Below are positions 27,456-48,966 of a stretch of DNA of 64,000 nt, piece by piece (within the stretch, counting starts at the first letter, position 1; the number at the start of each line of letters is the position of its first letter). A program made the translations under genes and the position numbers. Under the pieces are notes generated by a model. That model was not told the origin of the DNA and made no database searches. It was given only the letters and a program-made list of their open reading frames with translations. The DNA comes from Actinoplanes flavus. Lineage in GTDB: Bacteria; Actinomycetota; Actinomycetes; Mycobacteriales; Micromonosporaceae. The stretch covers positions 208,391 to 272,390 of the forward strand of contig NZ_JAGFNS010000007.1 in assembly GCF_017592555.1 (NCBI RefSeq). The letters run 5' to 3'.

Positions 27456-28718
27456 CTAGGGGCGGCGCGGTGCCGGTTCGAGGGGTGGGGAGGGCTCGTC
27501 CAGGAGCATGATCGGAGGGCCGGGTTCGAGCGGCTCCGGTGGGGTGTGCAGCCGGGGTGGCAGACCGGGTCGCCAGTGGCGGCGGCGGCTCCGGCGCAGG
27601 GCGGCGGCCGCCAGCAGGATGGCCAGAACCAGGACGGCGGCTATCGCGGCGCCGGTCAGGGCTATGGCGCGCCGCTGGGGTTCGGTGGCGTCGGCGGAGG
27701 GCGGGGGCGCCTGCAACGCCGGGAGGCGGCGGGCCTCGGTGTCCACCACCTGAGCGGTCAGTGCCGCGTACGGGTTGATCACGCCGGCGCCGAACGCCGG
27801 GCCGATGGGGGCGGGACTGGCGGTCGCCACCAGGTGACGGGCGATGTCGCCGGCGTTCAGGTCGGGATGGCGGGCCCGGGTCAGGGCGGCCGCCGCGCCC
27901 ACGAAACCGGCGGCCACCGCGGTGCCGTCCACTTCGACCAGGCCGCGGCCGGTCTGCAGGGTGGGGACCGCGACGCCGGGGGCCACCAGGTCGACGTAGT
28001 CGCCGCGCTGGGAGTCCGGCCAGTTCCGGCCGGTCTGGTCGATGGCGCCCACCCCGAGAACGTTCGGGTAGGAGGCGGGGTACGGCTGGGGGTTGGGCTC
28101 GTCGGGTCCGCCCAGATCGCCGACCGCGGCGACCACGACGACGTTCCGTGCGGCCGCGGCGGCGACGGCGGCCTCGAGGTCGCGGTCGTCGTCGTGAACC
28201 GGCGCGGCGACCACCACCACGTCGGCGCCGTTCTGTACGGCGACGGTGATGCCCTGGGCCAGCGAGTCCGGGGTGGGCTCGGAACCGGCCGGGTCGTCCA
28301 GCATCACCCGGACCGGCAGGATCCGTGACGCCGGGGACAGTCCGGCCACGTCGTTGTCGCCGCCGGCGCGCTGGCCGCTGATGACGCCGGCGACCTGGGT
28401 CCCGGTGCCGGTGCAGTCCTGGTTCGCGCGACCGGCCCCGATGACGCCGGCGCCGGCCAGGACCCGGTTGCCGAACTGTGGCTGGCCGGCGTCGACGCCG
28501 GTGGAGAGGACGGCCACGGTGATTCCGGCGCCATTCTCCAGCGGGGTGACGGCATCGGCCTGCAACATCGCCCTCGGCCATGATCCGTTTATTCGATCAC
28601 GGCCGGGATCGGCGCAATTCTGGCCGGGCGCGGCGAGTGCGGGAACGGGTGCGGAAAAGATCGGAACAATGATCGACAGGAACAGCGCCGCGAGCCTCAT
28701 GACGCACATCCTCCGCAC
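27456..28718 (-). CDS. Mycosin-like S8 protein of a type VII secretion locus, catalytically dead
   Basis: This 420-residue protein has the mycosin plan: signal peptide (to about residue 30), subtilisin fold, Pro-rich linker and a C-terminal membrane helix (about 354-376) followed by Arg residues. Mycosins are membrane-anchored serine proteases that stabilise ESX machinery. Here all key residues are changed. The VAVLDTG Asp is Ser72 (VAVLSTGVD), the DGHGT His is Thr105 (DCTGTGTQVAG), the GTS Ser is Ala267 (VDGTAVAAGF) and the oxyanion Asn is Asp201 (VVAAVGD). The fold motifs around them remain, so it is not a decayed gene. It is likely a structural pseudoprotease. It lies downstream of the two WXG100 genes on the same strand. 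Confidence 0.88.
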   Translation of the reverse strand: MRRMCVMRLAALFLSIIVPIFSAPVPALAAPGQNCADPGRDRINGSWPRAMLQADAVTPLENGAGITVAVLSTGVDAGQPQFGNRVLAGAGVIGAGRANQDCTGTGTQVAGVISGQRAGGDNDVAGLSPASRILPVRVMLDDPAGSEPTPDSLAQGITVAVQNGADVVVVAAPVHDDDRDLEAAVAAAAARNVVVVAAVGDLGGPDEPNPQPYPASYPNVLGVGAIDQTGRNWPDSQRGDYVDLVAPGVAVPTLQTGRGLVEVDGTAVAAGFVGAAAALTRARHPDLNAGDIARHLVATASPAPIGPAFGAGVINPYAALTAQVVDTEARRLPALQAPPPSADATEPQRRAIALTGAAIAAVLVLAILLAAAALRRSRRRHWRPGLPPRLHTPPEPLEPGPPIMLLDEPSPPLEPAPRRP

Positions 28719-28861
28719 TCATCGACAATGATTCCATTGAATGCCGGAAAGTCGCGGACCCATGGCGATCGTGGACTCCTGGCCACCGGATTCGGTGGGC
28801 GATCGTCCACGATCCGCACAGGGCGGCCGCCGGTGGGCGCCGGCGGCCGGTGGCCGGTCGG

Positions 28862-29146
28862 TCACATGCTGCCGGCGATCTGCGCGTCCACCTGCTGCAT
28901 GCGCTCGGCCGAGGCGCCCAGCCGGACACCGACGCCGGCCAGCGCGGACTTGATCTCGGTGGCGCCCTGGTTCCACTTCTGCCGGGCCTCGTCGCAGGCG
29001 GTGCCCGCGGCGCCGGTCCAGTCCTGGGCGAACAGCTGGGTGAAGGCGGTGTAGAGGTCGTTGAGCTCGCGGTCCATCTGCCCCTGGAAGGTGTTGATGG
29101 CGGCCGACACGTCGGCGATCTGCCCGAAGTTGTAGGTGATGTTCAT
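28862..29146 (-). CDS. WXG100 family protein (ESAT-6-like)
   Basis: This 94-residue protein fits the helical-hairpin WXG100 family of type VII substrates. The turn motif is DWTGAAG with Trp43 and Gly45, flanked by amphipathic helices (IADVSAAINTFQGQMDRELNDLYTAFTQLF and CDEARQKWNQGATEIKSALAGVGVRLG). No YxxxD/E secretion signal is seen at its C-terminus, so it probably travels as the partner of the next protein. GGAGACC precedes the ATG at 29146. It lies 20 bp downstream of the second WXG100 gene, with the mycosin gene beyond, so an operon is likely. Confidence 0.92.
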   Translation of the reverse strand: MNITYNFGQIADVSAAINTFQGQMDRELNDLYTAFTQLFAQDWTGAAGTACDEARQKWNQGATEIKSALAGVGVRLGASAERMQQVDAQIAGSM

Positions 29147-29166
29147 GGTCGGGTCTCCGTTCCGGG

Positions 29167-29526
29167 TCAGCCACGAAGGGCGGTGATGACGGAGCTGTCG
29201 ACGCCACCGGCAGCGGCGGCTCGCAGGTCCTGGGCGGCTTCCTCGTCGTTGGTGCCGTAGGTCTGGGAGGCGGCCGACATCTTGCCGCCGAGTTCCTCGA
29301 GCGCCTGCATGATCTTCGTGAGACCGTCGTTGAGCTGCGCCGAGACGTCCTGGAGGGCGTTGTTCGCGGTTCCGGCGAAGGCGCCGCCGCTGAGGCCCTG
29401 GATCTGGCCGAGGAGTCGGTTCATCCCGCTGGAGATGTTCTGTCCGGTGTCCGAGCACCGGCCGGCCATCGCGCTGAGCTGTTCCTGTGTGGCATGGACC
29501 TGACCCATGCCCGGCGTTCCTGCCAC
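29167..29526 (-). CDS. WXG100 family protein (CFP-10-like) with an FAG turn and a YxxxD signal
   Basis: This 119-residue protein has the same helical hairpin, but the turn reads GGAFAGTANN, so Phe50 replaces the usual Trp. The C-terminal helix is followed by TYGTNDEE, where Tyr90 and Asp94 form the YxxxD signal that EccC recognises. The tail after it is about 25 residues long. It probably pairs with the ESAT-6-like protein encoded next to it and carries the export signal for the heterodimer. It is the first gene of the minus-strand run; its promoter should lie in 29527-29700, shared with the divergent gene at 29704. Confidence 0.9.
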   Translation of the reverse strand: MAGTPGMGQVHATQEQLSAMAGRCSDTGQNISSGMNRLLGQIQGLSGGAFAGTANNALQDVSAQLNDGLTKIMQALEELGGKMSAASQTYGTNDEEAAQDLRAAAAGGVDSSVITALRG

Positions 29527-29703
29527 GATCTTCTCCCCGATTCTCGTGAGTGGGTTATGCCAGTCCGTACGCCGCCCGCCCGGATCCGGTTCGAAGCTTT
29601 TTCGAGGAATTCTCGTCGAACCCGTTCCGGGACCCCGGCGTACTCTTCTGCGTCACCGATCACCGCGATCGACGAATCATTGTGATCCATTGGGGGAGGC
29701 GTG

Positions 29704-30714
29704 ATGGGTGCGGACAATCCTTACGCGGACCAGACCGCGAAGAACACGCGCACGCCGTGGCTCGGCGGCGGCCCGTCGGTGGACGTCGACCTGGACGGCC
29801 TCCGCGACTACGCGACCCTCATGGGGAAACAGCAGACGGACATCATGTCCCGCACCGGGTACCTGGCGCCGCTCGGCCAGATGCCGGCCGCCGCCTTCGA
29901 TGGTGACGTGCTGGGTGAGGCGGACGCGGTGCGGGCGCGGCTGGTGGCGAACGCCGGCGAGCTGACCGTCTACCTGCAGAAGCTGGCCGAGTCGGTGGGC
30001 AACATCGGCAACGCGGCCCGGACCGTCGCGGACAGCTACCGCGGCGGCGACGCCCTCTCCGCGGCCTCCCTCAACGACGTGCTGTTCGCGTACGGCGACA
30101 AGAGCGTGCCCCGGCCGGCGGGCCTGCCGGAGGGTGTCGGCGTGACCTTCCAGGAGCGGCAGGCGGCCGCGCGGCCGGCGGTCCCGGCCGCGGACAGTGG
30201 CGAGTGGACGACGACGTCGGTCACCCCGCTGTCGGCGTACCAGTCGCTGGAGACGGCGGCCGGGCCGAACGGCGAGCGCCGCGAGGTGACGACGTTCAGC
30301 GCGCCGGGCAGCGGGATCACCACGGTCACCACCACGGTGTTCGGCAGCGACGGCGAGACGGTGTCGTCGGTCACCACCCGTACCTCGACCCGGGTGACCG
30401 GAGACGTCGAGATCAACGTCGAGGAGACCTTCGGACCCGACGGCCGGCAGACCGGGACGACGGAGACCCGGACACGGTACGACGGCGAGCACGTGACCGG
30501 CCGCAGCACCGAGATCCGCGACGCCGACGGGCAGACCGTGCACCGGACCGTCGAGACCACCGACGCGGACACTCGCGAGCAGGTCACCGTCACGTCGGAA
30601 CGCGACGCCGACGGCGTGATCGTGGAGACGAACCGGGTGGTCACCGGGATCGCCACCCAGGGGCAGGAGGTTCCCACCCCGTCCATCGCCGAGAAGTACC
30701 GAGTGAACGGCTGA
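29704..30714 (+). CDS. Type VII secretion-associated protein with helical N-terminus and Thr-rich beta repeats
   Basis: The 336-residue protein has no family I recognise. The first 120 residues are helical and WXG100-like (VDLDGLRDYATLMGKQQTDIMSRTGYL, LVANAGELTVYLQKLAESVGNIGNAARTVADSYRGGD). From about 160 on it is rich in Thr, Val and Asp, with repeating strands such as TTVTTTVFGSDGETVSSVTTRTSTRVTGD and EETFGPDGRQTGTTETRTRYDG, suggesting a beta-rich repeat domain. No signal peptide is present. GGGGGAGG lies four bases before the ATG at 29704. It is divergent from the WXG100 operon and four bases from the next gene, so it is probably a secreted substrate or partner. Confidence 0.82.
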   Translation: MGADNPYADQTAKNTRTPWLGGGPSVDVDLDGLRDYATLMGKQQTDIMSRTGYLAPLGQMPAAAFDGDVLGEADAVRARLVANAGELTVYLQKLAESVGNIGNAARTVADSYRGGDALSAASLNDVLFAYGDKSVPRPAGLPEGVGVTFQERQAAARPAVPAADSGEWTTTSVTPLSAYQSLETAAGPNGERREVTTFSAPGSGITTVTTTVFGSDGETVSSVTTRTSTRVTGDVEINVEETFGPDGRQTGTTETRTRYDGEHVTGRSTEIRDADGQTVHRTVETTDADTREQVTVTSERDADGVIVETNRVVTGIATQGQEVPTPSIAEKYRVNG

Positions 30715-30718
30715 TCCG

Positions 30719-32875
30719 ATGGCTGACTACTACGGCGCGACCGCCGACCCCAACTACGGGTACAGCCCGTACAGCGGACAGACGCACTACGGCAGCTACC
30801 CGTCCTCGCAGACGCCGTTCACCGGCGCGCCCGGCGGCGGCAACACCACCGGCATCGAGGAGATCCGTCAGCGGATCCGGAACATGCACCCGGAGCAGAT
30901 GGCGGCGCTCGCCGACCAGTGGCAGAACGCCTGGTCGTTCCTGGCGGACGTGAAGACGTTCCTGCTGAACCAGAGCAACGTGCTGCGGGACGAGGCCTGG
31001 CAGTCCCCGGCCGCCCGGGACGCGTTCCTGCGACGGGGACCCGGGGAGACGCTCGCCTACCTGGACGTGTGGATGGACGCCGCCCAGCAGAACGTGACCG
31101 CCCTGCGCCACCTGGTCAACGTCTCCACCGAGGCCCGGTACGCGATGGAGCGGCTGGTCAGGGACTACGAGGACGAGCTGCGGGAGGCCCGGAACGTCGA
31201 CTTCCTGGAGCACGTCGGCGCCTTCTTCACCGAGGGCGTCGGCTGGGACGCGGCGAGGCTGGAGGAGATCGAGGAGGACCAGTCACGGGTCCAGGAGAAG
31301 TACCGGTACGAGGCGCAGAAGCTGGCCTTCTACTACGGCGACCAGTTCTTCGACTACATCGGCACGCTCGCCAGCGGCGTCGGCCCGCCGGTGCAGCCGA
31401 TGAACGCGGTGCTCAGCCAGCCGGCCGGGCTGCCCGGTGGGGGCGGCCTGCCGGGTGGGGCGGGGCCGGGACAGCCGGGTCCCGGGTTCCAGCCGCTGCC
31501 GGTCGGCAACCCGCCGGCGGCGCAGCTTCCGCCGGGCACGACGCCGCCCGGGCAGCTGCCGCCGGGTCTGCTCCCGCCCGGAGCCGCGCTTCCGCTCCCG
31601 GTGGCGCCGGGCACCGTACCCCCGGGGTCTCTGCCGCCCGGTGTGACGCCTCCCGGAAGTCTGCCGCCGGGCCTGTCGCCCGGTCTTCCGGCGCCGATCG
31701 GCCAGTTGCCGCCCGGTGTTCCGCCGCCGGCGCCCGGAACGCTGCCGCCGGGGACGTTGCCACCCGGAACGCTGCCGCCGGGCACCCTCCAGCCGGGGAC
31801 GGTGCCGCCGGGCAGCGGGCCGTCGGTGATCCCGCCGGCAAGTGTGCGGCCCGGTCTGCCTCCGCGGCTGGGGCGGCCGGAGCAAAACGTGACGGTTCCG
31901 CCGGGCGGGCTGCCGCCGGGGCGGACCATCCGGCGCCCGAGCGCTCCGAGCGCGCCCGTCGTGCCGCCGGGCGGGCGGGAGATCCGGCGCACCGCTCCGG
32001 CGACCGTGCCGCCGACCTCCCCGGCCGCGCGCCCCGGGCGTACCACTCCGGGGGTGACGCCGCCGCCCGGCCAGACCGGGCGTCCCGGCCGGACCACTCC
32101 GGGGGTGACGCCGCCGCCCGGCCAGACCGGGCGTCCCGGCCGGACCACCCCGGGGGTGACGCCGCCCGGCCAGACCGGGCGTCCCGGCCGGACCACCACC
32201 GGGGCGACGCCGCCGGCCCGGACCTCTCCTCCCGGGGTCACGCCGCCGGGACAGACGGGACGGCCCGGGGATCGCGATCGCGGGCGTCCGGGGACACCGG
32301 CCCGGCCCACCGGGTCCGGAGTGGACGCGTTCGGCCGTCCGCCGGGGCAGGCCGCTCCGCCCGTACTGAAGAATCCGGGTGAGGGACGCGGAGCCCGGCC
32401 CGGCAGCGAGGCCGAGATGCGCCGCCCGGCCGCCCCGCAGCGTCCCGGCGGCGCCGCGCCGCCGGTGCTGAACCGGCCCACCTCGCCGGCCGCTCCTCCG
32501 CCCTACCGGCCGACCCGCCGGGATCGCGGTCTGCCGCCCTGGTCCGATCTGTTCGGCGCCGAGGAGGCCCGCAGGCGTGGTGGCTCCGGGACGATCGACG
32601 CGCCGGAGCGGGCCCGTCCGGACGGCGGTCCGTGGGGTCTGCGCAGCCGCGCGGCGACCCGGCCGGAGACACCGGCCGAGCCGAACCGGCCCGGCACGGT
32701 CGCGCCCGAGCTGGGCCGGCGGCGCGGGGGCGGCGAGCCGGTTCCGGTCCGCGAGGACCACGAGCTGGTCACCGACCAGCAGGCCTTCGGGGTACGGACG
32801 CCGGGCGGCAACGTGGTGACCGGCCGGGGCGAGGAGCCGCCGGAACCGGAGATCCGCCGGGCGTTCCGGTCGTGA
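30719..32875 (+). CDS. Large Pro/Gly-repeat type VII secretion substrate candidate
   Basis: This 718-residue protein has a structured N-terminal half (about 40-220) that is helical, with NMHPEQMAALADQWQNAWSFLADVKTFLLNQSNVLRDEAWQSPAARDAF, comparable to the long WXG/PPE-like domains of ESX substrates. After residue 220 it is low complexity: many LPPGT/LPPGV-type units (220-380) and a 17-residue repeat (VTPPPGQTGRPGRTTPG) encoded by three 51-bp units near 32040-32200. Basic and proline-rich sequence continues to the end. No signal peptide or membrane helix is visible. It is next to the gene at 29704 and the mycosin, so secretion through this system is likely but inferred. Confidence 0.82.
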   Translation: MADYYGATADPNYGYSPYSGQTHYGSYPSSQTPFTGAPGGGNTTGIEEIRQRIRNMHPEQMAALADQWQNAWSFLADVKTFLLNQSNVLRDEAWQSPAARDAFLRRGPGETLAYLDVWMDAAQQNVTALRHLVNVSTEARYAMERLVRDYEDELREARNVDFLEHVGAFFTEGVGWDAARLEEIEEDQSRVQEKYRYEAQKLAFYYGDQFFDYIGTLASGVGPPVQPMNAVLSQPAGLPGGGGLPGGAGPGQPGPGFQPLPVGNPPAAQLPPGTTPPGQLPPGLLPPGAALPLPVAPGTVPPGSLPPGVTPPGSLPPGLSPGLPAPIGQLPPGVPPPAPGTLPPGTLPPGTLPPGTLQPGTVPPGSGPSVIPPASVRPGLPPRLGRPEQNVTVPPGGLPPGRTIRRPSAPSAPVVPPGGREIRRTAPATVPPTSPAARPGRTTPGVTPPPGQTGRPGRTTPGVTPPPGQTGRPGRTTPGVTPPGQTGRPGRTTTGATPPARTSPPGVTPPGQTGRPGDRDRGRPGTPARPTGSGVDAFGRPPGQAAPPVLKNPGEGRGARPGSEAEMRRPAAPQRPGGAAPPVLNRPTSPAAPPPYRPTRRDRGLPPWSDLFGAEEARRRGGSGTIDAPERARPDGGPWGLRSRAATRPETPAEPNRPGTVAPELGRRRGGGEPVPVREDHELVTDQQAFGVRTPGGNVVTGRGEEPPEPEIRRAFRS
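32035..32205 (+). repeat. 51-bp coding tandem repeat in the Pro/Gly-rich substrate gene
   Basis: Three nearly identical 51-bp units encode TTPGVTPPPGQTGRPGR-type sequence. The third unit has lost one Pro codon. The period keeps the frame, so copy number can change protein length without destroying it. Confidence 0.75.
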
Positions 32876-33061
32876 GCCTCAGGCCCGGGGTACGGGTACC
32901 ACAGTCGAGCCGGCGGCCCGGTCGTGCAGTCCCCGGCCTCCTCGTCGAACAAGCCGCGGCCGAGGCCGGCCCCGTTTGTTGATGCGGCCACGGCGGCTGA
33001 GCGCACGCGATAGTGTCCGAAGAGCGGCTCGCGGCCTCGCCATGCCTGCTCGAAGCGTTAC

Positions 33062-33099
33062 GTAACACGGCGGAAACAATAGGGATACGCCGGGGCAAC
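33062..33099 (+). promoter_or_regulatory. GlnR binding site upstream of glnA
   Basis: The four half-sites GTAAC (33062-33066), GAAAC (33073-33077), GATAC (33084-33088) and GCAAC (33095-33099) are each separated by exactly six bases. This matches the actinobacterial GlnR consensus gTnAc-n6-GaAAc repeated twice: the first pair is perfect and the second has one change per half-site. It lies 84 bp before the glnA start. The rest of the 306-bp gap (32876-33182) contains no gene. Confidence 0.85.
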
Positions 33100-33182
33100 T
33101 CCGTACCCATAACGTCGCGACCAGCCCTGCCAGGTGGCGGCATGTGCCGCCCGGTATCGGAAATACTGTGCCAGGAGGACGT

Positions 33183-34607
33183 GTGTTCGCCAATCCCGAG
33201 GAACTCCTGCGATACCTCAAAGACGAGGACGTCAAGTTCGTCGACGTACGTTTCTGTGACCTCCCGGGTGTGATGCAGCACTTCAACATCCCGGTCGAGT
33301 CGTTCGACGACAGTGTGGTGACCGACGGCCTCGCCTTCGACGGGTCCTCGATCCGCGGATTCCAGGCCATCCACGAGTCCGACATGATGCTGCTTCCGGA
33401 CGTCGCCACCGCCTTCGTGGACCCGTTCCGGATCCAGAAGACGCTCGCGCTGAACTTCTTCATCCACGACCCGTTCACCCGCGAGGCCTACTCGCGTGAC
33501 CCGCGGAACGTGGCCAAGAAGGCCGAGGCCTACCTGGCCGCCAGCGGCATCGCCGACACCGCCTACTTCGGCGCCGAGGCGGAGTTCTACATCTTCGACT
33601 CGATCCGCCACGAGACCTCGGCCCACCAGTCGTTCTACTACATCGACTCGATCGAGGGCGCGTGGAACTCGGGTCGTGAGGAGCCGGGCGGCAACCTCGG
33701 CTACAAGACCACCTTCAAGGGTGGCTACTTCCCGGTCTCCCCGGTCGACCACTACTCGGACCTGCGCGACATCATGGTCCGCAAGCTGATCGACTCCGGT
33801 TTCACCGTCGAGCGCTCGCACCACGAGGTCGGCACCGCGGGCCAGGCCGAGATCAACTACAAGTTCTCGACCCTGCTGCACGCCGGCGACCAGATGCAGC
33901 TGTTCAAGTACATCATCAAGAACACCGCGCGGGCCGAGGGCAAGACCGTCACGTTCATGCCGAAGCCGCTCTTCGGTGACAACGGCTCCGGCATGCACAC
34001 CCACCAGAGCCTGTGGCTGAACGGCGAGCCGCTGTTCTACGACGAGACCGGTTACGCGGGTCTGTCCGACATGGCCCGGTGGTACATCGGCGGCCTCCTG
34101 CACCACTCGCCGTCGCTGCTCGCGTTCACCAACCCGACCGTCAACTCGTACCGGCGTCTCGTGCCCGGCTACGAGGCCCCGGTCAACCTGGTGTACTCGC
34201 AGCGCAACCGCTCCGCCTGCACCCGTATCCCGGTGACCGGCAGCAACCCGAAGGCCAAGCGCGTCGAGTTCCGCGTCCCGGACCCGTCGTCGAACCCGTA
34301 CCTGGCGTTCTCGGCGATGATGATGGCCGGCCTGGACGGCATCAAGAACAAGATCGAGCCGCCGGCCCCGATCGACAAGGACCTGTACGACCTGCCGCCG
34401 GAGGAGTGGGGCAACGTCAAGCAGGTGCCCGGCTCCCTCGACGCCGTGCTGAACTCGCTCGAGGACGACCACGAGTACCTGACGGCCGGTGGCGTCTTCA
34501 CCGAGGACCTGATCTCCACCTGGATCGACTACAAGCGCACCAACGAGGTCGACCCGGTCCGGCTCCGCCCGACCCCCCACGAGTTCGAGATGTACTACAA
34601 CGTGTGA
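33183..34607 (+). CDS. glnA: Glutamine synthetase type I-beta
   Basis: The main assimilatory glutamine synthetase makes glutamine from glutamate, ammonia and ATP as a cytoplasmic dodecamer. The 474 residues match the usual length. Motifs in order are [17 protein letters not shown], the AEAEFYIFD metal site, NKGGYFP-type loop ([10 protein letters not shown]), [51 protein letters not shown] and the adenylylation site [10 protein letters not shown] with Tyr402. It is therefore the probable target of GlnE. The GTG at 33183 follows CAGGAGG. Transcription is probably controlled by GlnR through the four-box site at 33062-33099. Confidence 0.98.
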
Positions 34608-34669
34608 CCCTCTCCAAGGTCGTGACCAGCGGTTTCATCCGCTGATCTGATCTTGGGCACAACGTGAGG

Positions 34670-34710
34670 AACGGCGGTCATGCTCGGCTCCCGGCCGGGT
34701 GGCCGCCGTT
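34670..34710 (+). terminator. Probable terminator after glnA
   Basis: AACGGCGG (34670-34677) pairs with CCGCCGTT (34703-34710), and a G-U pair plus one G-C pair can extend the stem. A TTT run follows. It lies 62 bp after the glnA stop. Confidence 0.55.
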
Positions 34711-34759
34711 TCGCGTGTGCCGAACACCCGATGACGGTTGCCGGGTGACGGATGCGGAG

Positions 34760-34780
34760 ATACTGTGTATGAAACAGTAT
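34760..34780. promoter_or_regulatory. Palindromic operator upstream of the PadR regulator
   Basis: ATACTGT (34760-34766) and ACAGTAT (34774-34780) are perfect inverted repeats with a 7-base spacer. The site ends 14 bp before the GTG start of the PadR-type gene and overlaps an AT-rich, -10-like stretch. That is the usual position for PadR autorepression. Confidence 0.8.
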
Positions 34781-34794
34781 GAGGTGACACTAGG

Positions 34795-35115
34795 GTGACG
34801 ATCGAGGGGAAGCTGGAGGCCGAGCTGCGGCGCGGCGTCCTCGTGCTCGCGGTCCTCACCCGGCTGCGCACCCGACAGTACGGCTACTCGTTACGCCAGG
34901 CCCTCGCCGACGCCGGCATGCCGGTCGAGGAGGGCACGCTCTACCCACTGCTGCGCCGCCTGGAGGCGCAGGGGCTGCTGGAGAGCTCGTGGGACACCGA
35001 CGGCGCCTCACCCCGGCGCTACTACTGGCTCAGCCCGGAGGGCAAGCGCGTTCTCGAGACGATGAGTGAGACGTGGCGGCGTCAGGTCCGGGTGATGGAT
35101 TCGCTCCTGGATTAG
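34795..35115 (+). CDS. PadR family transcriptional regulator
   Basis: This 106-residue protein is a short PadR winged helix: LRRGVLVLAVLTRLRTRQYGYSLRQALADAGMPVEEGTLYPLLRRLEAQGLLESSW, with the wing ASPRRYYWLSPEGKRVLE. PadR proteins are dimeric repressors. The GTG start at 34795 follows TAGG. The next gene, 12 bp downstream, encodes a membrane protein with an N-terminal helical domain typical of partners of PadR regulators (HAAS domain). A palindrome directly upstream suggests autorepression of the pair. Confidence 0.92.
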   Translation: MTIEGKLEAELRRGVLVLAVLTRLRTRQYGYSLRQALADAGMPVEEGTLYPLLRRLEAQGLLESSWDTDGASPRRYYWLSPEGKRVLETMSETWRRQVRVMDSLLD

Positions 35116-35127
35116 GAGGCGATCGGC

Positions 35128-35961
35128 ATGGACGCCGACGACGTCATCGAGAGCTACGTGCACGATGTGGCGCGACGGCTGCCGCCGCGCAAACGGGACG
35201 ATGTCGCTTTCGAGCTGCGTGCGCTGCTGCGGGAGGATCTGCGGTCCCGGCCCGGCGGGAGTACGCCGGAGTCCGCCGTGGAGATGCTGCGCGAGCTGGG
35301 CCGCCCCGCCGAGACCGCGGCCCGCTATCACCGCCCGTTCACCCTCGTCGAGCCGAGTGACACGTGGAGTTTCCTGGTCGCCGCGGTGGCCGGCGGTGTC
35401 GTGGCATGGGTCATGATCCCGCCGGAGTGGATGTCGGTGGCGACGCTCGCCTGGTTCGGGCTGCTGGTGATCGGGTTCGCGGTCCGGGGCCTGATCCTGC
35501 GGCGCGACCCGGAGGCGTTCGCCTGGCGGCCGCACCGGGTCCGGCGAACCGGCCGGGCGAACCGGGCCGGTGTGCTCGCACAGGTCACGGCGTGGGCGGC
35601 GCTGCTGATGGTGTACCTGAACCCGGGCTCACTGACCTACACCGACGACTTCGCCGGCCCGCTGCGGATGCCCTGGCTGGTGGTGATCCTCGCGCTGCAT
35701 CTGGCGCTGCTGGTCCTGGTGTTCCAGCGCGGCCGCTGGCAGCCGTGGACCCGCTGGTCACGGCTCCTGCTGACGCTGGAGGCCGGGATCCAGCTGGGCT
35801 GGCACTGCCGCTACGGCGACGTCTTCGCCGATCCGGGGGCCGACGCGCTGGTGTTGCCGTGGGTGGCCGCGCTGGCCGGGATCCTGGTGCTGGTGGCGGC
35901 TCTGATGTTCTACCGCGAGGTCACCCGGGTCGAGCCGGCGCCGAGGATGTCAGTGGTATGA
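35128..35961 (+). CDS. HAAS-domain membrane protein (DUF1700-like)
   Basis: The 277-residue protein starts with a charged helical domain of about 65 residues (VIESYVHDVARRLPPRKRDDVAFELRALLREDL, then SAVEMLRELGRPAETAARY). This is the HAAS/DUF1700 pattern that accompanies PadR regulators. Five or six membrane helices follow. AGGAGG precedes the ATG. The partner regulator probably senses or controls the membrane state through it, but the pathway is unknown. Its final 19 codons lie in a 69-bp sequence that is repeated twice more downstream, so the gene end has been tandemly duplicated. Confidence 0.85.
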   Translation: MDADDVIESYVHDVARRLPPRKRDDVAFELRALLREDLRSRPGGSTPESAVEMLRELGRPAETAARYHRPFTLVEPSDTWSFLVAAVAGGVVAWVMIPPEWMSVATLAWFGLLVIGFAVRGLILRRDPEAFAWRPHRVRRTGRANRAGVLAQVTAWAALLMVYLNPGSLTYTDDFAGPLRMPWLVVILALHLALLVLVFQRGRWQPWTRWSRLLLTLEAGIQLGWHCRYGDVFADPGADALVLPWVAALAGILVLVAALMFYREVTRVEPAPRMSVV

Positions 35962-36108
35962 GCGCCGGCCCTGATGTTCTACCGCGAGGTCACCCGGGTC
36001 GAGCCGGCGCCGAGAATGTCAGTGGTATGAGCGCCGGCCCTGATGTTCTACCGCGAGGTCACCCGGGTCGAGCCGGCGCCGAGAATGTCAGTGGTATGAG
36101 CGCCGGCC
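35902..36108. repeat. Three tandem 69-bp repeats made from two convergent gene ends
   Basis: Units start at 35902, 35971 and 36040, each 69 bp, and are almost identical; the first has G where the other two have A near their middle. Each unit contains the last codons and stop of the HAAS protein gene on the plus strand. In the third unit the same DNA holds the last codons and stop of the minus-strand DUF218 gene. The unit is 23 codons long, so it is in frame. Confidence 0.9.
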
Positions 36109-39639: not shown

Positions 39640-41007
39640 CTAATCGGGGTTGGCGGCCGGCTGGGTGGCGGCCGCCGGATCGAGGGTGACGCCCGCCGGG
39701 AGGGAGTTGATCAAGGCGGTGGGGATCTCGATGGCGTTCGCGGCGGAGTAGCCGAGGCGGGCCACCGTGTCGGCGTCGGGGAGCGCGTGGCGCAAGCCGA
39801 TGTCGGTGATCAGCGTGAAGCCACCGGACCCCGGTACGCGGACCAGCTCGAACCGTCCCGCCGGGACCTGGACCGCGTCGGCGATCGGGCGGCCGTTGCC
39901 GGTGGCGCCGCCGGTCGGGATGGTGGCGCCGAACGCGGTGGCGGGAGCGCCCATCGAGATCGCCGGGGGCTTGTCCGCGGCCGTGGTCACCGCGCAGGCC
40001 GATGCGCCCGGGTCGATGGTGGCCAGCGGGGGCACGACCTGCGGGCCGCGGACGGACGGGTCGTCGTTCGGCAGGGCGCGGCTCTCCGGGATGGCGGTCA
40101 GGTCGTTGACCGAGATCTGCCGGGGGCGGTCCGGGAAGCCGGCGTTGAGGACCGCCTGCTGGAGCGGGGTGATGGCGGCGCGGCCGTCGTTCAGGATCAG
40201 GTAGAACTGCTGGCCGCTGCCGGTCGGGGTGACCAGGATGTCGCCGTTGTCGAAGCCGGGCGCGGCCGGGGACCGGTTGCCGCGGCCGTTGACGTCGACG
40301 GGGGCGATGTCGGCGCCGGACGGGAGGGCGTCGAGCCAGGCGGTGCCCGTCCGGGTGGGCTGGGCGGCTCCGAACAGGGCCTGCACCGTCGTACGCGCGT
40401 CTTTGATCTCATGTTTGCGGCCCTGCCAGATCAGGTGCACGTCGCCGGTGATGACGTCTGTGGTGAGCAGGGCGCGGTCGCCGGCCGGAGTGGCCGCGGG
40501 GGCGCCCGCGCCGACCAGCAGGACGGTGCTGGGGCGGTTGCCGGGGACCGCGCACACGGTCCATGGCAGGCGGGCCTGGCGGGCCGCCTCGGGCAGGGAG
40601 GCGGGGGCGCCGGCGATGCCGATGGTGACGCCGCGCGGGGTGCCGGTCAGGGACTTGGCGGCGATCCGGAAGACCGGTGGGTCGGGACGGCCGGCGGCCA
40701 GTTTCGCGGAGGTGAAGTTGAGTGTGGGGTTGAGCCGGCCGCGCAGGTAGACGAAGCTGGCGCCGGTCTCGCGTTCGACCACCACCGAGCCTTCCCGCTG
40801 CCACTGGTTCGCGCCGGTCCGGGTGAGCAGGCCGTAGATGCCGAACCCGGCGGCGACCAGGATCGCCACCATGACACCGCCGAAGAGGGCGCCGATGCCG
40901 CGGCGCAGCGGCGACTGGGCCGGGTCGGTCTCGCGCATCACCAGCGCCGAGATCACCCGCTGGTTCATGAACTGGTACGACTGCAACTGGTCGCGGCGCG
41001 AGATCAC
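39640..41007 (-). CDS. eccB: Type VII secretion protein EccB
   Basis: EccB is a core subunit of the ESX membrane complex, with one membrane helix and a large periplasmic-side domain. The 455 residues begin SRRDQLQSYQFMNQRVISALV, the family's signature cytoplasmic start, and have the single helix at about 40-62. The outer domain contains repeated motifs such as WTVCAVPG and a Cys pair (near 152 and 345) of the kind that forms a disulfide. The GTG at 41007 lies seven bases after the eccD stop, so the two are co-transcribed. The plus strand beyond its stop is the heptad array. Confidence 0.95.
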   Translation of the reverse strand: MISRRDQLQSYQFMNQRVISALVMRETDPAQSPLRRGIGALFGGVMVAILVAAGFGIYGLLTRTGANQWQREGSVVVERETGASFVYLRGRLNPTLNFTSAKLAAGRPDPPVFRIAAKSLTGTPRGVTIGIAGAPASLPEAARQARLPWTVCAVPGNRPSTVLLVGAGAPAATPAGDRALLTTDVITGDVHLIWQGRKHEIKDARTTVQALFGAAQPTRTGTAWLDALPSGADIAPVDVNGRGNRSPAAPGFDNGDILVTPTGSGQQFYLILNDGRAAITPLQQAVLNAGFPDRPRQISVNDLTAIPESRALPNDDPSVRGPQVVPPLATIDPGASACAVTTAADKPPAISMGAPATAFGATIPTGGATGNGRPIADAVQVPAGRFELVRVPGSGGFTLITDIGLRHALPDADTVARLGYSAANAIEIPTALINSLPAGVTLDPAAATQPAANPD

Positions 41008-41013
41008 CGCCGG

Positions 41014-42465
41014 TCACCCGCCGAACGACGCGAACAGGCCGCGGATGTCGTCGAAGACGCCGATCACCGCGCAGGCGAGCGGGATCAGCGCCATGATCGC
41101 GACGATGTCCAGGATGTCGGCGGCGCGTCCCAGGTACGGCGACGGCGCCTTGCGGCTGTAGATCAGCGCCGACGGCAGGGCCACCGCGACCACCACGGCC
41201 GCGCCGGCGACCAGCACCACCCCGGAGACGGCGCCGGTGACGACCGGGCCGACACCGATTCCGGCCAGCCCGGCCAGCCCGGCGGTGAGCAGCGGCACCC
41301 GCTGCTGCGGGGTGGGCAGCAGCCGGGCCCGCAGCAGCAGCGCGGCGATCGCGGCGACCATCAGCAGCACGGCCGCGGTGTCCGGACCGGACAGCGCCAG
41401 CCAGGTCATCGCCACCACACTGCAGATCGCCGCCGACAGGATGAACCCGGTCAGCATCTCGGCGGCCCGGACCACGGCGGCGAACACGTCCGCCCGGCGC
41501 GGCATCGGCTTGTCCGCCAGGATCTCCTCGGCCCGGTTCGGCAGTTCCGGGAACGGCAGCCGGCCCAGCCAGCCGGCCAGCACCGGGTACGCCGGGAGCA
41601 GCCCGATCGCGGCGGTCAGCGCCACCGCGGCGGCGCCCTCCGCGGACATCCCGGCGAGCGCCAGCGTGGCGGCCAGCAGACCGGTCAGGGCGGCCGCCAT
41701 GCCGGCCACGAAGAGACGGGCCGGCCCGGCCACCCCGGCGTGCCCGATCACGCTGACCACCAGCAGCGCGGACGAGCCGAGGACCAGGCCGGGCGCGCCG
41801 ATGCCGAGGAACCCGCCGCCGGGTTCGGTGAGCAGCCAGGCGCCACCGAAGAACGCGTACGGCAGCCCGCTCGCGGCGACCACGCCACCGGCGCCGGCGT
41901 CCCCGAACGCCCGGGACAGCAGGATCCCCAGGACCGCGCAGGCCAGCGACACGACCAGGGCGACCACGCCGGGCAGCACCCAGGCGGGGCCGGTGGCGGC
42001 CAGCCCGGCCAGGCCGAGCAGCAGGGCGGCGGCGGTGACCGCGAGCCCGCAGCGCCGGGTGGCGGCCGGGCCCCACGACCGGGCGGCCCGGCGGGAGCCG
42101 CTGGCGATCACCTCGACCACGTCGTCGTACGCCAGCTCCGGCCAGTCCTCCCGGGCCGGGTCGAGGTGCAGCAGCTCCCCGTCGCGGACGCCCTGCGCGG
42201 CCAGGTTGCGCCCGGGTTCGAGGGCGGTGCCGGTGGCGCGGCGCAGCACCCATCCGCCGTACCGTTCGGCCGGTTCGCCCAGCGCGCCCTCGGCGTGCCG
42301 GAGCAGGTGCGGCAGCAGTTCGGCGACGAGCATGTTGTCGGGCAGCGCGAGGTCGAGGCGGCGGGTCGGCGCCGCGATGGTGACCCGGGCCAGCGAGGGC
42401 CCGCCGGATGCGGGTGCGCTCACAGTGGACAACGTAGCAAGCTGCGAAGATCCATTCACGTGCAC
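41014..42465 (-). CDS. eccD: Type VII secretion protein EccD
   Basis: EccD forms the membrane vestibule of the ESX channel. The 483 residues comprise an N-terminal ubiquitin-like (YukD) domain (about 20-105, ARVTIAAPTRRLDLALPDNMLVAELLPHLL and ELLHLDP) and 11 membrane helices. The GTG at 42465 may be too early; internal GTG codons near residues 3 and 15 are alternatives, since the family similarity begins around residue 24. It is divergent from eccC with 49 bp between, so both transcripts share a small promoter region. Confidence 0.94.
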   Translation of the reverse strand: MHVNGSSQLATLSTVSAPASGGPSLARVTIAAPTRRLDLALPDNMLVAELLPHLLRHAEGALGEPAERYGGWVLRRATGTALEPGRNLAAQGVRDGELLHLDPAREDWPELAYDDVVEVIASGSRRAARSWGPAATRRCGLAVTAAALLLGLAGLAATGPAWVLPGVVALVVSLACAVLGILLSRAFGDAGAGGVVAASGLPYAFFGGAWLLTEPGGGFLGIGAPGLVLGSSALLVVSVIGHAGVAGPARLFVAGMAAALTGLLAATLALAGMSAEGAAAVALTAAIGLLPAYPVLAGWLGRLPFPELPNRAEEILADKPMPRRADVFAAVVRAAEMLTGFILSAAICSVVAMTWLALSGPDTAAVLLMVAAIAALLLRARLLPTPQQRVPLLTAGLAGLAGIGVGPVVTGAVSGVVLVAGAAVVVAVALPSALIYSRKAPSPYLGRAADILDIVAIMALIPLACAVIGVFDDIRGLFASFGG

Positions 42466-42514: not shown

Positions 42515-45500
42515 GTGACAGTAACGATCATCAAGCGACCGCCGCGCCGGCCCGCGCCCGTGATGCCGTCCGGCGAGGTTCCGCTCGACCCGCCGCCCGA
42601 GGTGCCGCCGCCGCAAGGTAAGGGCTGGCAGCGGATGCTGATGATCCTGCCGATGGGCGCCGGGGCGGCCGCCATGGGCCTGATGATGGGCACCCAGCGC
42701 AGCGGCCCGATCGCCTACGTGGCCGGCGCGATGTACGGCGTCTCCATCCTCGGCATGATCGCGATGATGGCGGGCAACCAGAGCGGCCCCGGCAAACGCG
42801 AGATGATCGAGGCGCGGCGGCAGTACCTGCGGCATCTCTCCCAGCTCCGGGCCCAGCTGCGGGACACCATCCGCCGCCAGCGGGAGGCGCTCTACTACCG
42901 CAACCCGGATCCGGGGACACTCTGGACGTTCACCGAGAGCGGCCGCCTCTGGGAGCGCCGCCGCGGCGACGCCGACTTCACCGTGGTCCGGATCGCGGTC
43001 GGCCCGCAGGAGGTGGCCACCCGTCTCGTCCCGCCGCAGACCCGGCCGGTCGACGAGCTGGAGCCGCTCTGCGCCATGGCCCTGCGCCGGTTCGTGAGCA
43101 CCTACTCGGTGGTGCCGGATCTGCCGGTCTCGGTGGCGCTGCGCGACTTCTCGCACATCTACGTGCGCGGCGCCGACCAGCCGGTGCACGACTTCAGCCG
43201 GGCCCTGATCGCCCAGATGGCCACCTTCCACGCCCCCGACGACCTGCGGATCGGCGTCTGCGTGCCGGACCACGACCGCCCCCGCTGGGAGTGGGTGAAG
43301 TGGCTGCCGCACGGCCAGCATCCGGGCAAGACCGACGCCATCGGCCCGGTCCGGCTGGTCGCGCCGAGCGTCCCGGCGCTCGAGGCGATGCTCGACGACG
43401 TGCTGGTCAACCGGCCCCGGTTCGACCCGGCCGGCGCGCCCGGCGGCGGCCCGCACGTCATGGTGATCATCGACGGCGGTTCGACGGCCGGCTCCGACCA
43501 CCTGATGACCGAGGGCGGCGTCGCCGGGGTCACCATCGTCGACCTGTCGGTGCCGCCGCCCCGGCTGCTCGACGACAGCTCGGTGGTCCTGGAGATCGCC
43601 GCCGACGGCACGGTCACCGGCACCACGATGGACGGTCCCACCGAGGTTGGCCGGGCCGACGTGCTCAGCCTGCCGGAGGCCGAGGTGCTGGCCCGGGAGC
43701 TGGCGCCGCTGCGGCTGTCGGCCGCCTCGTTCGCCGACCAGCCGGCCATCTCCCAGGACACCGGGCTGGCCGAGCTGCTGGAACAAGCCGACCCGTACGG
43801 CATCGATCTCAACGAGCTGTGGGCCAGCCGCCCCAACCGGGACCGCCTGCGCGTCCCGATCGGGGTCGGTCTCGACGGCCGCCCGGTCGAGCTGGACCTG
43901 AAGGAGTCCGCGCAGGACGGCATGGGCCCCCACGGCCTGCTCGTCGGCGCCACCGGCTCCGGCAAGTCCGAGCTGCTGCGCACCCTGGTTCTGGCGCTCG
44001 CCATGACGCACAGCCCGGAGATCCTCAACCTGCTGCTGGTCGACTTCAAGGGCGGCGCCACGTTCGCCTCGCTGGACCGGCTGCCGCACACCGCCGCGAT
44101 GATCACCAACCTGGAGGACGAGCTGCCCCTGGTCGACCGGATGCTCGGCGCCATCCAGGGCGAGCTGACCCGGCGGCAGGAGCTGCTGCGCAAGGCCGGC
44201 AACTACGCGTCCCAGCGCGACTACGAGCGGGCCCGCTCGGCCGGGGTGCCGCTGGCCCCGCTGCCCAGCCTGCTGTTCATCGTCGACGAGTTCTCCGAGC
44301 TGCTCAGCGCCCGGCCCGACTTCATCGACATGTTCGTCCAGATCGGACGGGTCGGCCGGTCACTCGGCATCCACCTGCTGCTGGCCTCGCAGAAACTCGA
44401 GGAGGGGCGGCTGCGCGGGCTCGAGTCGCACCTGTCGTACCGGATCGGGTTGCGCACCTTCTCGTCGATGGAGAGCCGGGCCGTGCTCGGCGTGCCGGAC
44501 GCCTATGAACTGCCCCGATCGCCGGGACACGGCTATCTGCGTACCGGAACCGAGGGTTTGATCCGGGTGAAGGCCGCCTATGTCTCCGGGGTCGTCCGGC
44601 AGAACGGCGACCTGCCCGGCGCCGGCGGCCGGGGCGGCAACCCGATCCGCGACTTCTCCACCTTCTACGTGGCGCCGTTGCGCGACGACCTGCCGCCGGA
44701 GGACGACACACCCCAGGAGGAGACGACCGTCGGCGACACCCTGATCGAGGTGCTGGTCCGGCAGATGGAGGGCAAGGGCGCGCCGGCCCACGAGGTGTGG
44801 CTGCCGCCGCTGGACAAGGCGCCCACCCTGGGCCAGATGCTGCCGCCGGTGGTCACCGTGCCGGAGCGCGGGCTCACCGTCGACACCGAGGAACGGTTCG
44901 GGGCCCTGCACGCGCTCGGCGGGATCATCGACAAGCCGTACGAGCAGCGCCGCGACCCGATGTGGCTGGACCTGTCCGGGGCGGCCGGCAACGTGATGGT
45001 GGTCGGGTCCGCCCAGTCCGGCAAGTCCAACCTGCTGCGCACCCTGGTGGTCAGCCTGGCGCTCACCCACACCCCGCGTGAGGCGCAGTTCTACGGGCTC
45101 GACTTCGGCGGCGGCCCGCTCAGCGCGCTCGCCGACCTGCCGCACGTCGGCGGCGTGGCCACCCGGCGGGACGTGGACAAGGTCCGCCGCACCATCGCCG
45201 AGCTGCACGGGCTGATGCGGGCCCGGGAGGAGATGTTCGCGCGGGAGAACGTGGAGGGCGTCGCGGCGTACCGGCGGGCCAAGGCGCAGGGCCGGTACGC
45301 CGAGGACGCGTTCGGTGACGTCTTCCTGGTGGTGGACGGCTGGTCCACCTTGCGCACCGAGTTCGAGGACCTGGAAGGCACCGTGCACGAGCTGGCCAAC
45401 CGCGGGCTCGGTTTCGGCATCCACATCCTGGCCGCCACGAACCGGTGGATGGACGTGCGGCCGCAGATCCGCGACGTCTTCGGCACCCGCGTCGAGCTGC

Positions 45501-46465
45501 GCCTCGGCGAGGCCAGCGACTCGGTGATCAACCGGCGGGAGGCGGTCAACGTGCCGGAGGCCGCGCCCGGCCGCGGCCTCACCCCGGACGGCTACCACTT
45601 CCTCGCCGCCCTGCCCCGCATCGACCGGGAGCAGCGCGTCGACGACCTGGCCGACGCGGTCGCCGACCTGGTCCGGCACGTCGCCGGCCACTGGACCACC
45701 ACACCCGCCCCGCCGGTGCGCCTGCTGCCGGCCGAGCTGCCGTTCGAGGCGCTGCCCCCGGCCCGCGGCGGCGCCGTCCCGATCGGCATCGCCGAGGTCG
45801 ACCTGCAACCCGTCCACCTCGACTTCGACGCCGAACCGCACGCGCTGCTCTTCGGTGACGTGGAGAGCGGCAAGAGCTCCTTCCTGCGCAGCCTGGCCCG
45901 GTCCATCGCCGCGTCGCACACCCCCGCCGAGGCCCGGCTGCTCCTCGTCGACCTGCGGCGCAGCCTGCTCGGCTGCGTCGCCCCCGAGCACACCATCGGC
46001 TACGGCACCTCACACCAGGTCACCGCCGACCTGATCAACCAGGTGGCGGTAGCCATGCGGGAACGCCTGCCCGGCCCGGACGTCACCCCCGAGATGCTCA
46101 GCAACCGCGGCTGGTGGAAGGGACCCGAGCTCTACGTCCTCGTCGACGACTTCGACCTGATCGCATCGGCCAGCCCGAACCCGCTCACCCCACTGCTCGA
46201 ATTCCTGCCCCAGGCCCGCGACATCGGCCTGCACGTGGTGATCACCCGCCGGATCGGCGGCGCCGCGCGGGCCATGTTCGACCCGGTCATCGGCCGTATC
46301 CGGGAACTCGCCTCACCCGGGATCATGATGTCCGGATCCCGCGAGGAGGGCCCGCTCTTCGGCACCATCAAACCCCAGCCGCTGCCGCCGGGCCGCGCGT
46401 GGATGATCACCCGACGGCACGGCGCGCGGTTGGTCCAGCTGGCGTGGTCCCCTCCGGCCCGTTGA
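42515..46465 (+). CDS. eccC: Type VII secretion ATPase EccC (fused EccCa-EccCb)
   Basis: EccC is the FtsK/SpoIIIE-type motor that recognises substrates and drives export. The 1316-residue protein has two N-terminal membrane helices (about 48-92) and three ATPase domains in a row. Walker A motifs are GATGSGKSE (about 478), GSAQSGKSN (about 830) and GDVESGKSS (about 1114). Walker B-like strands are LLLVDFKGG, FYGLDFGGG and LLLVDLRRS. The first domain also has FIVDEFSELL and LLASQKL, so it looks active. It is a single polypeptide, as in most non-mycobacterial systems, whereas some mycobacteria split it. The GTG start is preceded by GGGGAG. Confidence 0.96.
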   Translation: MTVTIIKRPPRRPAPVMPSGEVPLDPPPEVPPPQGKGWQRMLMILPMGAGAAAMGLMMGTQRSGPIAYVAGAMYGVSILGMIAMMAGNQSGPGKREMIEARRQYLRHLSQLRAQLRDTIRRQREALYYRNPDPGTLWTFTESGRLWERRRGDADFTVVRIAVGPQEVATRLVPPQTRPVDELEPLCAMALRRFVSTYSVVPDLPVSVALRDFSHIYVRGADQPVHDFSRALIAQMATFHAPDDLRIGVCVPDHDRPRWEWVKWLPHGQHPGKTDAIGPVRLVAPSVPALEAMLDDVLVNRPRFDPAGAPGGGPHVMVIIDGGSTAGSDHLMTEGGVAGVTIVDLSVPPPRLLDDSSVVLEIAADGTVTGTTMDGPTEVGRADVLSLPEAEVLARELAPLRLSAASFADQPAISQDTGLAELLEQADPYGIDLNELWASRPNRDRLRVPIGVGLDGRPVELDLKESAQDGMGPHGLLVGATGSGKSELLRTLVLALAMTHSPEILNLLLVDFKGGATFASLDRLPHTAAMITNLEDELPLVDRMLGAIQGELTRRQELLRKAGNYASQRDYERARSAGVPLAPLPSLLFIVDEFSELLSARPDFIDMFVQIGRVGRSLGIHLLLASQKLEEGRLRGLESHLSYRIGLRTFSSMESRAVLGVPDAYELPRSPGHGYLRTGTEGLIRVKAAYVSGVVRQNGDLPGAGGRGGNPIRDFSTFYVAPLRDDLPPEDDTPQEETTVGDTLIEVLVRQMEGKGAPAHEVWLPPLDKAPTLGQMLPPVVTVPERGLTVDTEERFGALHALGGIIDKPYEQRRDPMWLDLSGAAGNVMVVGSAQSGKSNLLRTLVVSLALTHTPREAQFYGLDFGGGPLSALADLPHVGGVATRRDVDKVRRTIAELHGLMRAREEMFARENVEGVAAYRRAKAQGRYAEDAFGDVFLVVDGWSTLRTEFEDLEGTVHELANRGLGFGIHILAATNRWMDVRPQIRDVFGTRVELRLGEASDSVINRREAVNVPEAAPGRGLTPDGYHFLAALPRIDREQRVDDLADAVADLVRHVAGHWTTTPAPPVRLLPAELPFEALPPARGGAVPIGIAEVDLQPVHLDFDAEPHALLFGDVESGKSSFLRSLARSIAASHTPAEARLLLVDLRRSLLGCVAPEHTIGYGTSHQVTADLINQVAVAMRERLPGPDVTPEMLSNRGWWKGPELYVLVDDFDLIASASPNPLTPLLEFLPQARDIGLHVVITRRIGGAARAMFDPVIGRIRELASPGIMMSGSREEGPLFGTIKPQPLPPGRAWMITRRHGARLVQLAWSPPAR

Positions 46466-47625: not shown

Positions 47626-48966
47626 TCATCCCGCGCCACCTCCGGTCGGGGCGGTCGCGTAGGCGGCCGGGCCCTGCTCGCCGTCGAGGGGGAGCAGCGC
47701 GCCGCCGGCCCGCCGGACGCCCTCCTGGAGAACCCGGTCCAGGGCGGCCAGGTCCGCGTCCGGGCGGGTCGCCATCCGGATGAACGCGCGCACCGCCACC
47801 TCGTCCCCGTCTCCGGCCCGCAGCAGCAGCGCCACACTGGTCTGCGCGGCCGGGGCGGTCGCCGCCCAGGCGAACAGCGACCCGATCTCGGCGGCCGACG
47901 CCGGCCAGGTCTGCAGCCAGTACGTCCGGTGGATCAGCCGCGCCGACCGCCAGTGCGTCCACGCCTCGTCCACGCCCGGGCCGTCGGCCAGCGCCCACGG
48001 CTCCACATCGCACGACCGGGCCAGCAGGGCCAGCAGCTGATCGGCGTCCAGCGGCTTGCCGGCGATCCCGAGCCGCCGGAGGTTGGCCGCCACCTTCCGG
48101 CCCAGCCCGGCGACCAGCGTGGCGGCCGCCTCCGGGTCGGCGGTGTGGTCGAGCAGCGCCTCGGCCAGCGCCTGCGCGTCGATCCGGACGCTGATCGACG
48201 TCTCCCGGTACGCCGGCACCGGCCCGGCGCTCACCGACTCCACCAACTGCCGGTACGACGCCCCGGACGGCGAGGCGGCCGGCACGTCCGGGCTGGGGGC
48301 CGGCACCGTGTGCGTGACCAGCTCCATCACGAGGCCCGGCTGCCCGGTGCCGGCGAGCGTTCCGGCCAGTGCGTCGAGTGGCATCTCGGTGACGGCCGGG
48401 CCGACGGCGACGACGCTGTACCAGCCGGCCTCGTCCCGGGCCACACCGACGGTGCCGTCCGCCGCGGTCACGTCCCGTACGGTCAGGCCGGGCGCCACCG
48501 AACGCAGCGCGGCCAGCACCGGCCCGGACCGCGGATCCCGCCGGGCGGCCCGGCGGCGGCGGTGCTCGGCGGCGACCCGCCGGTGCTCCAGCCACCAGCG
48601 GTGCTGCCGGCGGGAGAAGAAGACCAGCATCACCGCGGCCGCGCCGGCCACGGTGACCAGCAGGGTGGCGACGTCCTGTGTGACGGCGAAGACGAGGGCC
48701 AGCGCCGCCGCCTCGGCCGCCACGATCTGCGCCAGGCTGAACGGGCCCAGATGACCGCGCCGGGGCACGGCCCGGACCACGCCCTCCGGCGGCCGGGACT
48801 GCGGCGCGGGCCGCGACACCGGCCGTGGCGGGGGAAGAGGTGCCCCGGCGTTACCGCGAACCGGTGTGCCCGGGGGAGGAGGTGGAACGGCGCTGCCGCG
48901 AACCGGTGTGCCCGGCGGCCGCAGCGGCGCGGCGGCGCCGTACGTCGGTCCCTCACCCCGGTGCAC
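47626..48966 (-). CDS. eccE: Type VII secretion protein EccE
   Basis: EccE borders the ESX membrane complex. The 446 residues start with a Pro-rich tail, then two adjacent membrane helices (about 78-120: FSLAQIVAAEAAALALVFAVTQ and VATLLVTVAGAAAVMLVFFSRR), then a cytoplasmic domain with repeated strands and helices (WYSVVAVGP, TSISVRIDAQALAEALL, YWLQTWPA). This helix-pair-then-large-domain layout and its position among ecc genes identify it. The start is GTG at 48966. It is 49 bp downstream of the AAA gene and probably co-transcribed with it. Confidence 0.87.
   Translation of the reverse strand: MHRGEGPTYGAAAPLRPPGTPVRGSAVPPPPPGTPVRGNAGAPLPPPRPVSRPAPQSRPPEGVVRAVPRRGHLGPFSLAQIVAAEAAALALVFAVTQDVATLLVTVAGAAAVMLVFFSRRQHRWWLEHRRVAAEHRRRRAARRDPRSGPVLAALRSVAPGLTVRDVTAADGTVGVARDEAGWYSVVAVGPAVTEMPLDALAGTLAGTGQPGLVMELVTHTVPAPSPDVPAASPSGASYRQLVESVSAGPVPAYRETSISVRIDAQALAEALLDHTADPEAAATLVAGLGRKVAANLRRLGIAGKPLDADQLLALLARSCDVEPWALADGPGVDEAWTHWRSARLIHRTYWLQTWPASAAEIGSLFAWAATAPAAQTSVALLLRAGDGDEVAVRAFIRMATRPDADLAALDRVLQEGVRRAGGALLPLDGEQGPAAYATAPTGGGAG

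Follow-up and report, generated by a model that had tools for sequence, protein, structure and literature searches.

The closest described relatives of the protein analysed here are the mycosins of mycobacterial type VII secretion systems (T7SS), namely MycP1 and MycP3 (TIGR03921; PDB 4hvl, 4j94, 4kg7, 4m1z) and MycP5. A 64,000-nucleotide stretch of the Actinoplanes flavus genome (NCBI RefSeq assembly GCF_017592555.1, contig NZ_JAGFNS010000007.1, positions 208,391 to 272,390 of the forward strand), which we refer to as the window, encodes a pseudo-mycosin that resembles these proteins in its predicted fold, its apparently exported, membrane-anchored build and its association with a T7SS locus, but differs from them in that all four catalytic-site residues are replaced and in that it carries a cytosolic tail with the motif PxPPxxL[FL]. 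In M. tuberculosis, the MycP5 trimer is described as capping the EccB5 chamber and stabilising the complex (PMC8131196), and protease-dead MycP1 is reported to still support, and even raise, secretion, MycP being required for complex stability (PMC5082899; PMC5156307); as presented in these reports, MycP1 and MycP5 have a structural role that is independent of proteolysis (PMC8131196; PMC5082899; PMC5156307). Trp523 of MycP5 is described as buried at the EccB5 interface.

Two other systems offer parallels as far as their descriptions go. CspC and CspA of C. difficile are likewise pseudoproteases of subtilisin type that are retained for a role other than catalysis, but they are soluble spore-germination proteins and not parts of a secretion complex, and the EssB/YukC pseudokinase of T7SSb likewise places an enzyme-like fold in a type VII machine, but with an unrelated kinase fold and in a Bacillota system. 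Subtilase pseudoproteases such as CspC and the structural role of MycP are already on record. The novelty lies in a T7SS subtype that has a dead mycosin as its hallmark, on the scale of a whole subtype and beyond one locus; no report of a triad-less mycosin was found in the open-access literature searched, which was covered mostly at listing level and with subscription papers outside its scope. By analogy with the mycobacterial proteins, the window protein is probably a structural pseudoprotease that caps and stabilises the EccB ring, a reading that draws on the loss of the residues, the intact predicted fold, the conservation of the gene, its linkage to eccB, eccD and eccC and its near-confinement to one EccC/EccD clade.

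A mycosin fold without its catalytic residues

In a profile alignment to subtilisin Carlsberg and KerA, residues S72, T105, D201 and A267 align with the catalytic Asp, the catalytic His, the oxyanion-hole Asn and the nucleophile Ser, respectively, such that STDA replaces the DHNS of an intact site (we use this order of the four sites throughout). Together with the codons listed in Table 1, this bears out the four substitutions proposed in an earlier note on this DNA. The possibility of sequencing errors at the four sites was considered and rejected: an orthologue with 91% identity, in the two-contig genome G020, carries the identical four residues, and since independent genomes agree on them, such errors are unlikely.

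The match to the mycosin model TIGR03921 spans residues 53-380 (E 2.7e-68), and its 230.7 bits lie under the curated equivalog cut-off of 278.75, as do the 276.2 bits of an intact mycosin on contig C16 of the same genome; the Pfam Peptidase_S8 match amounts to 93.6 bits. The subtilisin/MycP fold is predicted to be intact in a structure model (A3, which superseded an earlier model, A2, with a predicted local distance difference test (pLDDT) score of 69, on which Foldseek had been run). The signal peptide and C-terminal anchor described in the earlier note also appear to be kept, the former as a signal-like N-terminus judged by eye on the sequence, the latter as a long, presumably membrane-spanning helix at residues 342-381 of the model. 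The likelier start of the protein is the ATG at 28700 (residue 7), which is preceded by GGAGG.

Distribution of the loss

A search of 60 genomes of the genus returned 25 loci in 23 genomes matching at E 1.2e-80 or better. The catalytic Ser is missing from all 23 Actinoplanes loci L037-L059, which represent the window along with 22 other genomes, and from a second copy in the same genome as the window (contig C45), and wherever these cover all four sites, none of the four catalytic residues is kept; the 25th locus (L084, genome G027) reads STDA. For L059, whose gene is split between frames, the N-terminal piece was read separately. Seven weaker matches in the genus (L060-L066) have intact sites. 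Members of the group also occur in other genera of the family and in two further families of the order (f13, f15); in one of the searches behind this, 30 loci out of a longer match list were read. Across this group, the four sites read DHNS in one intact case (L167), and otherwise DHND, DHVD, DHTD, DHDA, DTDG, DTDA, DREA, DSNG, ETDG, GQDA, SLDG, STDA and others.

In the last mycosin tree (93 rows, four catalytic columns removed, midpoint-rooted like all our trees), 48 rows with incomplete triads form a 49-row clade (bootstrap 99, Shimodaira-Hasegawa-like approximate likelihood ratio test (SH-aLRT) 95) together with the intact L167; the divergent A. rectilineatus protein L080 sits in it on a long branch. 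A weaker group (90/87) comprises 36 rows, of which 35 have an intact triad and L267 (DHSG) has lost it; the triad is also intact in the eight rows that lie further away. The minimum number of changes on this tree is three for the triad, four for Ser, three for His, six for Asp and seven for Asn; at least two of the three triad changes are forced by the starred branches, one of them in L267, outside the clade. In an earlier approximately unbiased (AU) test, one clade for the 44 serine-less rows was not rejected (p 0.22). The triad may have been lost once or several times.

The first tree gave a 54-row clade (96) with L171, L172, L174 and L175 outside it; those of the four that were kept fall inside once more rows are added. 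That tree left out both pieces of a gene split in genome G046, L081, two open reading frames (ORFs) of L086 and near-duplicates. The later alignment, on which the AU test, the 93-row tree and the site and tail counts below are based, further omitted L085, L106, L087, L031 and L176, and was thinned by 18 named loci of close relatives.

Association with one EccC/EccD clade

In quick trees of the neighbouring machine components, the dead-mycosin loci fall on one side of a single branch, both for EccC (34 versus 5 loci, support 95; 39 of the 41 rows found were used, those of 600 amino acids or less being omitted) and for EccD (36 versus 4, support 99). Since these loci had originally been found via their mycosins, we resampled with an EccD profile in 300 genomes of the family and 249 of the order. 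In the family search, 59 EccD loci scored 627 bits or more, to which the order search added 5, and in 63 of these 64 the assigned mycosin lacks the catalytic Ser; the remaining one (G120) has an intact mycosin about 24 kb off. The mycosin lies at most 4 kb from EccD in 59 of the 64, the exceptions being the window (12 kb), G025, G088 and G071 (9-10 kb), and G120. Dead mycosins are thus nearly restricted to one EccC/EccD clade.

Among loci under 500 bits, four of seven were examined: G162, G212 and G217 hold an intact mycosin, and the G333:C2 stretch holds only a weak mycosin-like match, reading DHNS.

Selection and conserved sites

For the pair of the window and G020, the pseudo-mycosin has a ratio of nonsynonymous to synonymous rates (dN/dS; Nei-Gojobori, single pairs) of 0.236 at a dS of 0.18, next to 0.38 for EccB, 0.30 for EccD, 0.12 for EccC and 0.06 for GlnA. 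Other mycosin pairs gave 0.25-0.39 (six serine-less pairs), 0.19 (a DHTD/DHVD pair) and 0.26-0.40 (three intact pairs).

Comparing 35 intact rows with the 48 clade rows site by site, we found 44 columns in which the two sets share a residue that reaches at least 90% in each. The oxyanion Asn is replaced by D or E in 41 of the 48 clade rows, and Ala or Gly occupies the nucleophile position in equally many (41/48). Positions lost along with the triad include R318 and two residues of the substrate strand, N169 (34/35 intact rows) and S171 (35/35), which in the clade are mostly V/A and A/S/P.

These counts bear on two other ways of reading the protein. One could speculate that other residues provide a non-canonical catalysis, for which the acidic residue common at position 201 might be a candidate, but the nucleophile position is mostly Ala or Gly and the clade has gained no new conserved Ser or His. 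The sole new Cys, at position 35, was dropped as a clade-specific residue because its specificity depends on the alignment (in a second alignment, Cys35 is present in all 74 rows), and we regard an alternative chemistry as highly improbable. Alternatively, the dead cleft might bind a secreted Esx protein or peptide, which it would gate or guide without cutting, in line with the kept fold, with the acidic residue at the oxyanion position and with other subtilase pseudoproteases that are described as sensors, such as C. difficile CspC. Against such a gate, the substrate-strand residues N169 and S171 are relaxed in the clade too, and introducing a bulky side chain into the MycP pocket in mycobacteria reportedly did not block secretion (PMC5082899), which leaves it an unlikely explanation.

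Of the 48 clade rows, 45 carry the tail motif PxPPxxL[FL] in its strict form, as does L167; it is absent from all 35 intact rows, all 8 distant rows and L267. We nevertheless rejected it as a feature unique to dead mycosins, as 14 of the 35 intact rows have it in a looser form and the intact L167 has the strict form.

A probable structural role

The natural Ser-to-Ala change of the clade resembles the engineered protease-dead MycP, from which we infer a structural cap, and the recurrence of the loss across the subtype points to a cap that is maintained for its structure rather than for any enzymatic activity. According to this model, the pseudo-mycosin would be exported and anchored by a single membrane helix, with the subtilisin-like body kept; extrapolating from mycobacterial ESX, the body may sit on EccB as a trimeric cap that holds the EccB dimers together. 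Some lineages would have lost part of the proteolytic residues and others all of them, the body remaining under purifying selection, and, one step further removed from the data, the conserved cytosolic PxPPxxL[FL] tail might dock on the cytosolic side of the machine. The earlier note's view of the protein as a structural pseudoprotease is supported by these results, with the cap role itself drawn by analogy: orthologues in related genera share the loss, both at the Actinoplanes loci and in the 49-row clade, the dN/dS of 0.236 resembles the values for intact mycosins, and the gene keeps its association with eccB, eccD and eccC.

Several observations weigh against a structural cap. The clade member L167 (G120) has an intact DHNS and is separated from its EccD by about 24 kb. 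The catalytic domain has a higher mean column entropy in the clade than in the intact rows (1.56 versus 1.31), which fits some relaxation, and the dN/dS method is a simple one. Dead-mycosin loci were the source of the EccD profile (A5), and the 627-bit line was set after the scores were known; just below it, at 503-605 bits, four of the seven readable loci have an intact triad (the nine loci there comprise DHNS in G094, G324 and, with two mycosins, G085; DHDS in G337; STES in G398; GIAE in G082; DHSG in G103; and no readable mycosin in the locus in G100 and G092). Finally, in the one-contig genome G046 the pseudo-mycosin is split between two frames (L059; L256:8126-9507), and decay may thus occur, if this is not an assembly error.

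That the gene is a relic losing its function, as this split gene and the long-branch L080 could indicate, is hard to reconcile with frames that are open in many genera, a kept position in the locus and a dN/dS well under 1 and similar to that of intact mycosins, and strikes us as very improbable. A private decay of the window gene was rejected on the basis of its dN/dS and of the 49-row clade.

Work on mycobacterial mutants left open why mycosins retain a protease that is dispensable for secretion; here, evolution has in effect run the experiment in many genera, with the protease going and the body remaining, and the partial losses (DHND, DHDA, DTDG) beside complete ones (STDA) would make the structural role separable from cutting in soil bacteria. 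More tentatively, and with somewhat less than even confidence, we propose a distinct T7SSa subtype, present in several families of one order, in which the protease has turned into a structural cap, by loss at the base or several times, and in which the PxPPxxL[FL] tail became fixed and might couple the periplasmic cap to EccD or to the cytosolic motor. Such a subtype would prove, by natural example, that for ESX secretion the body of the mycosin is required and its protease is not.

Other mycosins in the same genome

The copy on contig C45 has the identical four changes and adjoins its own eccB, eccD and eccC. Intact mycosins are encoded on contigs C36, C16 and C7, so that the second, intact mycosin for which the earlier note had suggested a search does exist, and proteolysis could be supplied in trans. 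The mycosin on C36 (L031) lies beside a third eccC and eccD, with no eccB within the 16 kb examined; the genome has three EccB genes. One could imagine a division of labour in which the cutting is done by an intact mycosin encoded elsewhere, with or beside which the dead one assembles: in all 16 genomes checked, one or more further matches exceed the mycosin cut-off, those read (L222-L249) being DHNS, and the genome of the window has one intact mycosin next to a third eccC/eccD pair without eccB. However, the intact mycosins lie outside the clade, save L167, and mycobacterial MycPs are reported to act on their own ESX complex (PMC5082899), so that we consider such a division quite unlikely. 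In the one-contig genome G022, the single EccB match stands next to the pseudo-mycosin.

L031 on C36 and L029 on contig C3 represent a second kind of locus, with eccC, an intact mycosin and eccD and no eccB in the examined stretch; an eccB stands separately on another contig. Contig C2 carries a degenerate mycosin-like gene (L032:8256-9437, minus strand) with T/H/D/E at the four sites; none of the T7SS genes of the window has a match in the 17 kb examined around it, and its neighbours resemble, by eye, a two-component pair. In genome G085, a tandem pair of intact mycosin genes lies beside one eccB (L268:13198-15818).

The type VII locus of the window

With EccB, EccC, EccD, EccE and WXG100 proteins present, the window holds a T7SSa (ESX) locus, to which the pseudo-mycosin is linked through eccB, eccC, eccD and the esx genes (Table 1). 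The locus, described as intact in the earlier note, is complete but spread out, the mycosin being 11 kb away from eccB-eccD-eccC.

Table 1 Features of the pseudo-mycosin gene and the type VII locus in the window
Feature	Position	Strand	Remarks
Pseudo-mycosin (S8 fold of mycosin type, no catalytic residue kept)	27456..28718	-	420 aa (amino acids), open frame
Cytosolic tail motif EPLEPGPPIMLLD (clade motif PxPPxxL[FL])	27498..27536	-	sequence
C-terminal hydrophobic helix, presumed transmembrane, residues 342-381	27576..27695	-	structure model
Ala267 codon gcg (nucleophile Ser position)	27918..27920	-	codon read 27920-27918
Asp201 codon gat (oxyanion-hole Asn position)	28116..28118	-	codon read 28118-28116
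Thr105 codon acc (catalytic His position)	28404..28406	-	codon read 28406-28404
Ser72 codon tcc (catalytic Asp position)	28503..28505	-	codon read 28505-28503
WXG100 (Esx) protein	28862..29147	-	over NCBIfam cut-off
WXG100 (Esx/EspC-like) protein	29167..29526	-	over NCBIfam cut-off
Conserved locus protein, 337 aa	29701..30714	+	no Pfam or NCBIfam match
Conserved locus protein, 718 aa, long Pro-rich C-terminal part	30719..32875	+	
EccB	39640..41007	-	over NCBIfam cut-off
EccD	41014..42465	-	over NCBIfam cut-off
EccC (EccCa and EccCb in one chain)	42515..46465	+	over NCBIfam cut-off
EccE	47626..48966	-	over Pfam cut-off; under NCBIfam cut-off
EccA/SpoVK/CbbX-like AAA protein (ATPase) with N-terminal right-handed beta-helix	49016..50674	-	below each NCBIfam cut-off

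In the closest relative, G020 (L190), and in the other Actinoplanes loci compared, the mycosin adjoins eccB, save in A. philippinensis (L069). Both the window (27456-39640) and A. philippinensis L069 show an inversion, relative to eccB, of the block mycosin-esx-337 aa-718 aa-glnA, and G020 does not. Tandem-repeat arrays lie between glnA and eccB in the window. An array at 36874-37007 consists of 16.8 copies of the perfect 8-base repeat CCGGTGGC at the start of a DUF218 ORF (36088-37017, minus strand), and others are at 37667-38008 and 38992-39438.
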